Below, in pieces: positions 29,943 through 32,983 of a stretch of DNA of 35,657 bases. The notes beneath the pieces are model-generated. The model had not been told where the DNA came from and searched no databases. It saw only the letters and a list, made by a program, of their open reading frames with translations. The stretch's first letter is position 1. Each line of letters starts with the position of its first letter. The DNA is from Anaerolineales bacterium (GTDB lineage Bacteria; Chloroflexota; Anaerolineae; Anaerolineales; UBA6668): NCBI GenBank assembly GCA_020630175.1, contig JAHDBW010000002.1, positions 15,607-51,263 of the forward strand, in the 5' to 3' direction. The position numbers were made by a program, and so were the translations under genes.

Positions 29943-31043
29943 ATGACTGAACAGTTAAACAACGTCCAAGAAAGTATATCGCTCGCATTTTCTGCACTCG
30001 CTGCAGAGCGTGCAGCCGTTGCTGCAACCAACGCCAACGGAGCAGCACCGCATATTCCCGCGCAACTATTTCCACGGTTAGGCACTTATCTATTGCGCAA
30101 CGGCATGGTAACGCGAGAGCAGCTAGACCATGCGTTAGCGTATCAAAAAGCGCAAAAAGCCGAAGGCAAAGACGTCCGTCTAGGCCAAACGCTTGTCGAT
30201 TTAGAACTCGTGACCCGCACCGATCTCGATCGTGTCATCATGGAGCAAATGATCGAACTGCAAAACGCACTCCAACAAAGCAACCGCGTGTTGGAACACC
30301 GCGTTGCTGAGCGTACCGCAGAATTACAAGAAGCACTCACCAAGTTGATGGAGCTAAATCAGCACAAAATCAACTTTATCTCCAACATCTCACATGAGTT
30401 ATTGACTCCGCTGGCAAAGATCAAAGGCTTTAGCATAATGCTTGCCGATCAAGCCCTCGGTGACATCAACGAAGATCAGCACAAAGCATTACACACCGTC
30501 AATCGGTCTGTGCTTTCGCTAGAACAACTCATCAAGGATCTAATCCGCTTTGCCAGCACGGCGCGCGGTGAGATCAAAGTCGATCTGCGACCAACCGACT
30601 TGCAAAAAGTCTACAAAGAGCTCTATCAAGACTTTGTCGCGAAGGCCCAACGTGAGCAACTCACGCTCTCGCTAGACCTTTCACCAGACTTCCCAGCCAT
30701 CAAGGCCGACGCGGAAAAACTCAATTGGGCGCTCCACCAGTTTCTAGACAACGCCATTAAGTTCACCAAACCCAATGGCCGCGTCATTCTAGGCGGACGT
30801 ACTAACGGCACGCACGCCCTGCTGTATGTAGAAGATACCGGCATTGGCATCCCAGACGATCGAATTTCCGAATTATTTGTCCCATTCCATCAGCTAGATG
30901 GATCGTCCACCCGCCACTTTGGCGGCACAGGACTAGGCTTGGCATTTGCGAAACGGCTCGTGCAAGCGCACAACTCGGACATTGAGCTTGAATCCAAGGT
31001 TGATGTCGGCACACGCTTCAGTTTCTTATTGCCACTGGCCTAA
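29943..31043 (+). CDS. Soluble histidine kinase with N-terminal MshEN-like domain
   Basis: This 366-residue sensor kinase has no membrane segment. Residues 45-68 and 79-102 each fit the 24-residue MshEN/GspE N-terminal pattern RLGxxLxxxxxVxxxxLxxxLxxQ, starting RLGTYLL and RLGQTLV and ending in Gln68 and Gln102. A coiled coil (about 103-140) leads to the dimerisation helix with phosphoacceptor His151 in SNISHELLTPL. The ATPase domain has the N box (FLDNAIKFT), G1 DTGIGIPD and G2 GGTGLGL. In MshE-type ATPases this pattern binds c-di-GMP, so the kinase may read c-di-GMP; that is inference. No response regulator is adjacent. The ATG lacks a Shine-Dalgarno sequence. An intrinsic terminator follows. 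Confidence 0.9.
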   Translation: MTEQLNNVQESISLAFSALAAERAAVAATNANGAAPHIPAQLFPRLGTYLLRNGMVTREQLDHALAYQKAQKAEGKDVRLGQTLVDLELVTRTDLDRVIMEQMIELQNALQQSNRVLEHRVAERTAELQEALTKLMELNQHKINFISNISHELLTPLAKIKGFSIMLADQALGDINEDQHKALHTVNRSVLSLEQLIKDLIRFASTARGEIKVDLRPTDLQKVYKELYQDFVAKAQREQLTLSLDLSPDFPAIKADAEKLNWALHQFLDNAIKFTKPNGRVILGGRTNGTHALLYVEDTGIGIPDDRISELFVPFHQLDGSSTRHFGGTGLGLAFAKRLVQAHNSDIELESKVDVGTRFSFLLPLA

Positions 31044-31065
31044 GCTCTTCCCCCGCAAACACATT

Positions 31066-31094
31066 AAAAGCCTCGCTATTGCGGGGCTTTTTTA
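31066..31094 (+). terminator. Terminator of the MshEN-like kinase gene
   Basis: AAAAGCCTCGC and GCGGGGCTTTT form an 11-bp stem (one T-G pair) with a TATT loop, followed by a T-run, 23 bp after the stop codon. Confidence 0.88.
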
Positions 31095-31134
31095 GTTAAA
31101 TTACACAGCTATTCCTCAAAACACCCAAAATCCA

Positions 31135-31164: not shown

Positions 31165-31252
31165 TAAGCATTTCTATAGACATCTATCAACTTCTGAATA
31201 CCAAATCCGATACTATAAAGTGGGGATAGTTTTCAGGAGAGCGATTTGTAGA

Positions 31253-32983
31253 ATGCACTCAGAGCCAATCGAAACATTAACCGACATTCGGCACGCGTAT
31301 ACCCAAAAAATCATCAAGTATTGCGCCGCTATATTTTTGCCTGTGCTGATTTATGCCAGCGTCATGGCCGTTCGGCGTGACATTGCGTACATTGTCCCAA
31401 TTTATGCCGCCCTTTATGCCATCGTACTCTTGCTCGCATTGGACAAGAAGTACATCTCCACCCCTGTCAAGGCCGGCCTGATTACAGCGCTCCCATTCAT
31501 TGTTTGCAGTTATGAATTCTTCTTATTTGGGTTAGCTGGTAGCGCCACAATTTACTTGCCGTTACTGGTCTTCATTAGCATCGCAACCCTGAATCAGCGC
31601 GCCGCACTACTTAGTCTAGCCGCTTCAATTGTTGTGATGGGGATTGCCGGTTATTTCATTTTGACGATCCCAGGCTTCCTGCCAACAGACCGCCTGCAAA
31701 CTTCGCTATCCCCTGCATCTTGGATCATCCGTGGCGTCGAACTCATTGCCTTTTGTGGCGTGATGGCGACCGGCATGCAATACATCTTCAAGCGCATGAC
31801 AGCATCGCTAGACACGGCCCAACGGTTGAGCATCTCACTGGCTGAAAAACAAGAACACCTAGAAAAAATTATGGGCTCTGTACCAGGTGCAGTGCTCATG
31901 GTCGATCTTGACCACGTTGGGCAAATTCGCTGGAGCAACGCCGCCGCAACAACCATGTTTGACTGCGCTGAGCACACGCTCCATGCGCAATCGCTCACGG
32001 CTCTGCTCAAAGACAAAAGTGAATACACAACCCTAAAAAACGCCTTGCTCTCTAAGCAAGGGTTTTCTGGCGATGAATTACTCTTTACCGCGTGTTACAA
32101 AGGCCGTAGCTTTTGGGGGCAGGTCAGCGGGAGCATGCTAAACACTGAAGACGCACCCTCTGCCTTATTGATCATTCTCGATGTTGATGAACGCACGCGC
32201 GCCAAGCAGGCTATCAATCAAGCACAAAAGATGGAATCGCTTGGGCTAATGGCCAGTGGCATTGCACACGATTTCCGCAACATTCTTACCACTGTCAAAG
32301 CGCACACCGATATCGCCATTCGCGGCTTAGAGGATGGCGCTAAATCACACCAGCAACTCATCAAAGCCCAAAACGCGATTGACGCCGCCACAAGCCTCAC
32401 GTCATCACTGCTTACGTATGCCAGCAAAGAAGCGCCTTCAATTGCCGAATTAGACATTAACAACCTTGTTGGCGATATTGAAGAGCTGATTTCAATCAGC
32501 ATTCCACGGCAAATCGAGGTCAAACGCCAACTGTGTCATGAAGCGCCCGCAATTCTGGGGGACAAAAACCAGATGCAGCAAGTGGTTTTGAATCTGATGA
32601 TCAATGCCGCCGAAGCAATTGGCAATCGCCCCGGTTACATTACGCTTGTGACCGATGAAATTGAACTCCAGACGTGGCAAGCGCAGCAGTGGCAAATCGG
32701 CAATGATGAATTGCAAGGTGGGGCCTACCTGCTGCTAGAAATTTCAGACAGCGGCAGCGGCATGGACACCGCCACGCTCCAATCCATCTTTGACCCCTTT
32801 TTCACCACAAAAGAGTCCGGTACAGGCCTCGGTCTAGCCACCGTGTTTGGCATTATTCGCGCCCACTCTGGCGGCCTGCAAGTGGTCTCGCATCCGGGCA
32901 ATGGCACAACGTTCCGGCTCATTTTCCCAGTTGTCAACACGCCTGTTTTACATAACCTAACCGAAATCATCGCCGACGTTTAG
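31253..32983 (+). CDS. Membrane-bound PAS sensor histidine kinase (NtrB-like core)
   Basis: This is a 576-residue two-component sensor. Residues 20-180 hold about five to six membrane helices with very short loops, so the signal may come from within the membrane. A PAS domain follows at about 195-310 (PGAVLMVDLDHVGQIRWSNA). The H box is GIAHDFRNIL with His339, the H-D type seen in NtrB-like and hybrid kinases. The N box is VLNLMINAAEAI; G1 is DSGSGM; G2 is GTGLGLATV. The start is the ATG at 31253, with AGGAG 13 nt upstream, a long spacing; a GTG at 31220 is in frame but lies on the promoter-like TATAAAG. No response regulator gene adjoins it. Confidence 0.9.
   Translation: MHSEPIETLTDIRHAYTQKIIKYCAAIFLPVLIYASVMAVRRDIAYIVPIYAALYAIVLLLALDKKYISTPVKAGLITALPFIVCSYEFFLFGLAGSATIYLPLLVFISIATLNQRAALLSLAASIVVMGIAGYFILTIPGFLPTDRLQTSLSPASWIIRGVELIAFCGVMATGMQYIFKRMTASLDTAQRLSISLAEKQEHLEKIMGSVPGAVLMVDLDHVGQIRWSNAAATTMFDCAEHTLHAQSLTALLKDKSEYTTLKNALLSKQGFSGDELLFTACYKGRSFWGQVSGSMLNTEDAPSALLIILDVDERTRAKQAINQAQKMESLGLMASGIAHDFRNILTTVKAHTDIAIRGLEDGAKSHQQLIKAQNAIDAATSLTSSLLTYASKEAPSIAELDINNLVGDIEELISISIPRQIEVKRQLCHEAPAILGDKNQMQQVVLNLMINAAEAIGNRPGYITLVTDEIELQTWQAQQWQIGNDELQGGAYLLLEISDSGSGMDTATLQSIFDPFFTTKESGTGLGLATVFGIIRAHSGGLQVVSHPGNGTTFRLIFPVVNTPVLHNLTEIIADV

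Follow-up and report, generated by a model that had tools for sequence, protein, structure and literature searches.

An N-terminal MshEN module on a soluble histidine kinase of Anaerolineales as a probable c-di-GMP receptor

Residues 45-68 and 79-102 of a histidine kinase from an Anaerolineales bacterium (Chloroflexota, UBA6668; GCA_020630175.1, JAHDBW010000002.1) form a tandem MshEN N-subdomain and are not a chance motif. The gene lies in the 35,657-nt stretch of DNA analysed here, referred to as the window. With a probability of roughly 0.7, this kinase is a cytoplasmic receptor for c-di-GMP in which the MshEN bundle gates the DHp via helix alpha4; ligand binding, the sign of its effect and the output are the parts that we infer. 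A sequence-only reading of this DNA had proposed two 24-residue MshEN motifs joined directly to a HisKA/HATPase core, and both proposals were borne out, the motifs falling exactly at 30075-30248 and the connection appearing as a continuous helix in the AlphaFold2 (AF2) model. The features of the locus are as follows.

29943..31043, + strand: MshEN_N, signalling helix, HisKA and HATPase_c histidine kinase, 366 aa (ORF, Pfam and AF2)
29943..30068, + strand: N-terminal tail, residues 1-42, a low-confidence helix (AF2 pLDDT <50 over most of 1-42)
30075..30146, + strand: predicted c-di-GMP half-site motif I, residues 45-68, RLGTYLLRNGMVTREQLDHALAYQ, helices alpha1-alpha2
30147..30176, + strand: spacer of 10 residues (69-78), extension of alpha2 plus loop (AF2; 6-11 residues in orthologues)
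30177..30248, + strand: predicted c-di-GMP half-site motif II, residues 79-102, RLGQTLVDLELVTRTDLDRVIMEQ, helices alpha3-alpha4
30216..30446, + strand: one unbroken predicted helix, residues 92-168, comprising MshEN alpha4, signalling helix and DHp helix 1 (AF2)
30366..30557, + strand: HisKA, residues 142-205, with phospho-acceptor H151 in NISHELLTP (PF00512, E 5.7e-14)
30708..31037, + strand: HATPase_c, residues 256-365, with N, G1 and G2 boxes intact (DNAIKF, DTGIGIP, GGTGLGL; PF02518, E 5.5e-24)
31066..31094, + strand: intrinsic-terminator-like hairpin, AAAGCCTCGC TATT GCGGGGCTTTTTT (fold of 31056-31100, -17.6 kcal/mol)
31220..32983, + strand: neighbouring membrane histidine kinase, MASE11-PAS-HisKA-HATPase_c (Pfam)

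The kinase is soluble, and its Pfam matches are HisKA and HATPase_c only, an NCBIfam search also returning matches to the kinase core only. It has the makings of a HisKA kinase, with the H-box and the N, G1 and G2 boxes intact and kept across an alignment of relatives (A1), in which H151 is unchanged in 20 orthologues and the tail equivalent to residues 1-42 is missing or swapped for a zinc-ribbon-like segment. The hairpin at 31066..31094, which was not picked up by a consensus terminator scan, suggests that the kinase transcript may end there. No adjacent regulator was seen within the window for the MASE11-PAS-HisKA-HATPase kinase at 31220-32983, and no evidence places that membrane kinase in the pathway of the MshEN kinase.

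The MshEN half-site has been described by the 24-residue consensus RLGxx(LVI)(LVI)xxG(LVI)(LVI)xxxxLxxxLxxQ (PMC5013675). Motif I departs from it solely by M for L/V/I at position 11, and motif II by E for the turn G at position 10 and I for L at position 21; despite these deviations (M11, E10 and I21), the tandem arrangement of RLG start, hydrophobic core, Leu17/Leu21 and Gln24 is present, and in the window protein the Arg, Gly and Gln of each motif are in place, as are the six Leu/Ile triad positions. When the relaxed search motif of PMC5013675 is applied, motif I passes and motif II fails at one position (E versus [GAS], position 10); in that study the relaxed motif served as a search aid, and position 10 is a turn residue, not a ligand contact. 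The spacer has 10 residues as against 5 in MshE, and the kinase domain is therefore filed as an MshEN variant, not as a canonical MshEN.

Homology was supported by several searches. A profile built from non-kinase MshENs only scored the kinase ORF at 38.5 bits (E 1.1e-11, 268 window ORFs), all other window ORFs reaching at most 5.3 bits, and the N-domain scored 45.2 bits, whereas the best of 20,000 shuffles reached 18.2 bits. The MshEN-glycosyltransferase L036, a bona fide MshEN that itself matches MshE and PilF in the PDB, retrieved the kinase in its genome as a query (E 6.4e-6, 44% identity across both motifs). The paralogue L002 was considered as a further MshEN kinase of this genome and rejected, being a REC-HisKA protein in which the match falls on the coiled coil. 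Alignment of 15 kinase domains with nine MshENs by hhalign gave a probability of 99% (E 3.5e-18, 55 columns), and hmmsearch with the kinase-domain profile retrieved MshE 5htl at E 1.3e-9 together with the c-di-GMP-binding PilF domains, so that homology to solved MshENs is statistically significant by both methods.

The sequence-only reading had named an MshEN profile search as its own check, and the outcome was divided: PF05157 gave no match, whereas profiles built from the motif region match strongly. PF05157 found nothing in the kinase protein or elsewhere in its genome, and a C-terminal alpha/beta subdomain, which this model represents, is accordingly not detected in the kinase. On the bona fide MshEN of L036 (1-1713, - strand), PF05157 aligns to residues 71-157 and the c-di-GMP motifs lie at 18-70. 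The model was therefore rejected as a test of the MshEN claim; its silence is uninformative because it describes only the C-subdomain, downstream of both binding motifs. This subdomain is dispensable for binding, since VcMshEN 1-62 binds c-di-GMP at 0.35 uM (PMC5013675). A weak match of DUF4388 (PF14332) to the MshEN half-motif was also observed, in a setting where PF05157 misses N-subdomain-only proteins.

Structure prediction agreed with the profiles. In the full-length AF2 model, built with 20 orthologues (mean pLDDT 74.8; pTM 0.52, which leaves the inter-domain geometry uncertain), helices span residues 44-52, 58-73 and 80-86, followed by the single helix 92-168, and a structure search returned only kinases among the best 50 matches listed. 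The domain-only model (pLDDT 83) is a four-helix bundle, and its best 15 PDB matches by Foldseek were all MshE, PilF or PilB N-domains. The best of these was 5htl_A, MshE with c-di-GMP (1.1 A rmsd, 62 columns, probability 1.00), with a Foldseek E of only 0.028, as expected of so small a domain. The added spacer residues are accommodated in the model by a longer alpha2 and loop, with the bundle undisturbed.

Conservation of the contact residues was examined in 33 sequences including the window protein, nearly all from the same order. In motif I, position 1 is R in 30 and K in 3, G3, L21 and Q24 are found in 33/33 and position 17 is L or I; this invariance is partly by construction, the table having been gathered with a motif I pattern requiring R/K, G and Q, but G47, L61, L65 and Q68 are likewise invariant in alignment A1, which was built without that pattern. 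Motif II, collected with a looser pattern, has L (25), R (5), M (2) or V (1) at position 1, G3 and L17 in every sequence, V or I at position 21 and Q24 in 29/33. Leucine in place of the motif II arginine in most orthologues was at first taken as lost binding, a reading withdrawn since the same residue occurs in a 6 nM binder, the GSPII-B domain of PilF, which has K and L at position 1 of its motifs and led to an extended (R/K/L) consensus (PMC11731258). Both half-sites satisfy this extended consensus in 26 of the 33 sequences, the window protein included. Substituting Ile for Leu in motif II did not alter the ligand-induced behaviour of a reconstructed PilF GSPII-A, in which the Gln positions were needed for binding (PMC12002112). 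The second Gln is lost in four orthologues (L029, L030, L031 and L032; the replacements are H twice, M and L), which may be unable to bind c-di-GMP, so that not every orthologue need be a binder. Compared with L014, the window gene has 36 synonymous and five nonsynonymous codon differences in the MshEN domain, a pattern indicating that purifying selection acts on the domain. Relatives of 89-90% identity are labelled Anaerolineales.

Related proteins of other layouts were encountered in the same survey. The divergent orthologues L030, L032 and L098 carry an N-terminal CxxC...CxxC zinc-ribbon-like segment ahead of the MshEN module. Stand-alone MshEN_N-like proteins of about 72 residues, with two motifs and a 10-residue spacer, are encoded in other genomes of the class (L034:1486-1701 and L038:1480-1692); other families of the phylum have an ORF of 189 aa in which an FHA-like N-terminus precedes MshEN_N-like motifs (L099, G615:C50:5314-5493) and proteins of about 250 aa with two MshEN_N-like units, e.g. 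G430:C2:700407-700799.

The genome is equipped to make the ligand. Absence of diguanylate cyclases, which would have told against c-di-GMP sensing, does not apply, the genome having nine GGDEF matches, seven of them with GG(D/E)EF, intact A-sites and RxxD I-sites, and one HD-GYP domain. EAL, PilZ and PF05157 were not detected in this assembly, which is 91% complete in 500 contigs and makes such absences provisional. Among genomes of the order in which both kinase and GGDEF were searched for, all outside families f138-f147, 12 have both, with 5-17 GGDEF matches each (G000, G027, G061, G089, G111, G130, G148, G164, G202, G271, G289 and G582), and five have neither (G243, G253, G263, G555 and G575). 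Family f3 divides in the same way, two of its genera having both the kinase and GGDEF proteins and three having neither. This co-occurrence supports a link to c-di-GMP and is not independent proof, the losses being few and all in f3. Several near-complete genomes of the order are without any GGDEF domain (f3, genera g8, g9 and g188; f147), suggesting that c-di-GMP signalling may have been lost there.

The strongest competitor to the proposed reading, which we nevertheless hold to be unlikely, is that the MshEN fold has been kept and c-di-GMP binding lost, the domain serving for dimerisation or protein docking, as in XpsE or the first GSPII of PilF. Such non-binding MshEN-fold domains exist (PMC5013675; PMC12002112), and the spacer and motif II deviations of the window protein, together with the second Gln missing from 4/33 orthologues, fit this explanation. 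It sits poorly with the retention in the window protein of both Arg, Gly and Gln pairs and of the six triad positions, with motif I contact positions showing almost no variation across the order, in contrast to non-contact positions, and with the absence of the kinase where GGDEF proteins are absent.

The possibility of direct c-di-GMP sensing, raised by the sequence-only reading, thus gains support from contact-residue conservation, fold and co-occurrence, with binding and gating deduced. In the proposed mechanism, the two 24-residue half-sites would build an MshEN-type four-helix bundle holding one c-di-GMP, each guanine being sandwiched by a Leu triad and Arg and the ribose-phosphates held by the closing Gln residues Q68 and Q102. 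Q102 is predicted to lie on alpha4, which would continue unbroken into the signalling helix and the DHp helix 1 bearing H151, so that a ligand-driven change in alpha4, by ordering or rotation, would switch autokinase or phosphatase activity. Such ordering or rotation is a plausible switch because the isolated N-subdomain of a re-engineered PilF GSPII-A folds upon ligand (PMC12002112).

It is also conceivable, if rather improbable, that c-di-GMP binds and sets the location or partner choice of the kinase instead of its catalysis. SgmT offers a precedent, its degenerate GGDEF sequestering the kinase with phosphorylation unaffected (PMC3509222); the solubility of the kinase studied here fits this reading, as does the localisation-type REC-MinD (TadZ-like) protein encoded in most sister operons. 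However, the sensor is directly N-terminal to the DHp and shares one predicted helix with it, and the kinase has no other sensor domain for gating, whereas SgmT has a separate GAF for that. That the physiological ligand is a different cyclic dinucleotide, for instance 3',3'-cGAMP, is very improbable: VcMshEN does bind cGAMP weakly (KD 3.3e-4 M; PMC5013675), but c-di-GMP is bound far more tightly by the known fold, and seven canonical diguanylate cyclases are encoded in the genome. That an ordinary coiled-coil kinase merely resembles MshEN in these motifs through chance or low complexity, as the lack of a Pfam MshEN domain might suggest, has a negligible probability, being already refuted by the profile, shuffle and structure tests, and the Pfam model misses the motifs.

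Regarding the output of a c-di-GMP-gated kinase, relatives are informative. At all 15 f2/f3 loci, the gene order is amidohydrolase, MshEN kinase, GAF kinase and OmpR-type regulator, most of these operons lying downstream of ParA/ParB; a REC-MinD (TadZ-like) gene and a TadA-like ATPase are each found in 12/15, the latter scoring 329.6 bits against TIGR03819, under the cut-off of 373. The operon at L064:5603-13680 and its equivalents at L052-L068, near ParA/ParB, comprise amidohydrolase, MshEN kinase, GAF kinase, OmpR-type regulator, REC-MinD, DUF6812, TadA-like ATPase, XRE and TPR genes, and the regulator is highly conserved across them (65-91% identity). In a third family (G582, f61), the zinc-ribbon form of the kinase stands directly before a TadA-like ATPase (sequence read against L064). 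Among relatives, the kinase hence appears to be tied to a pilus- or secretion-type motor and to a circuit of two kinases and one regulator. In the sister families, the output is likely the adjacent OmpR-type regulator, which would be common to the GAF kinase and linked to the TadZ/TadA-like genes.

In the window's genus, the kinase gene is unlinked from the genes of the sister-family operon and its neighbours in the window do not match that operon; an LPG-synthase-like gene alone is in common between the window flank and the L014 flank. A TadA homologue was not found in the window's genome, in a search without a positive control, and a TadA-linked operon in this genome was rejected on that ground and on its different neighbours. 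An orthologous OmpR regulator was likewise rejected, the best candidate having 48% identity and unrelated neighbours. With TadA not found and no close sister-type regulator, the output is not transferable from the sister families to this genome.

MshEN domains are known from V. cholerae MshE (PDB 5HTL) and T. thermophilus PilF GSPII-B, to which the kinase domain is alike in its tandem 24-residue motifs, four-helix bundle and Arg, Leu triad and Gln contacts. It differs from these in having the N-subdomain only and a 10-residue spacer, and in its fusion partner, a histidine kinase where the known domains have a secretion or pilus ATPase or a glycosyltransferase. Fusions of MshEN to CheA, REC, HD-GYP and other domains were listed in 2016 by Wang et al. 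(PMC5013675). These fusions likewise place MshEN at the input of signalling proteins, a chemotaxis kinase among them, but the dimerisation and phosphotransfer layout of CheA differs from that of a HisKA kinase. The term 'histidine kinase' has no occurrence in the main text of that paper, and a literature search found no paper pairing 'MshEN' and 'HisKA', the 2016 supplementary tables lying outside the scope of both statements.

Histidine kinases that respond to c-di-GMP by other means have been reported. SgmT of Myxococcus xanthus is likewise a c-di-GMP receptor, but binds the nucleotide at the I-site of a C-terminal degenerate GGDEF domain, with GAF gating the kinase and the ligand affecting localisation, not phosphorylation (PMC3509222). 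Direct c-di-GMP control has also been described for RavS of Xanthomonas campestris, which binds via R656 in the catalytic (CA) region (PMC6707612), and for Caulobacter CckA (PMC4853435), neither being known to contain an MshEN module. PdtaS is cited among c-di-GMP-binding histidine kinases in PMC10519070, and none of SgmT, RavS, CckA and PdtaS uses MshEN as far as the cited texts indicate. Both c-di-GMP-binding histidine kinases and MshEN-CheA fusions are thus already known, and the pairing of MshEN with a HisKA kinase appears to be new as an architecture. Judged from the sequences, the novelty lies in an MshEN N-subdomain that stands alone, has a longer spacer, is joined directly to a HisKA kinase and is conserved in an order of Chloroflexota.

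Annotation based on PF05157 overlooks proteins that have only the c-di-GMP-binding half of MshEN, and receptors may hence be missed in lineages thought to be without them, as in the present genome, with its seven cyclases and PilZ, EAL and canonical MshEN undetected. A tentative and rather doubtful extension is that c-di-GMP in this Anaerolineales-related lineage has the MshEN kinase as its main and possibly sole protein receptor, the whole network of many cyclases, with PilZ and EAL undetected, feeding into one phosphorelay whose gate is a ligand-ordered helix common to sensor and DHp. If the proposed reading is true, the architecture would lend itself to structural work on the switching of a kinase by a nucleotide, and the coupling of c-di-GMP to two-component signalling would be very simple, a single small soluble protein having the receptor bundle in frame with the signalling helix.
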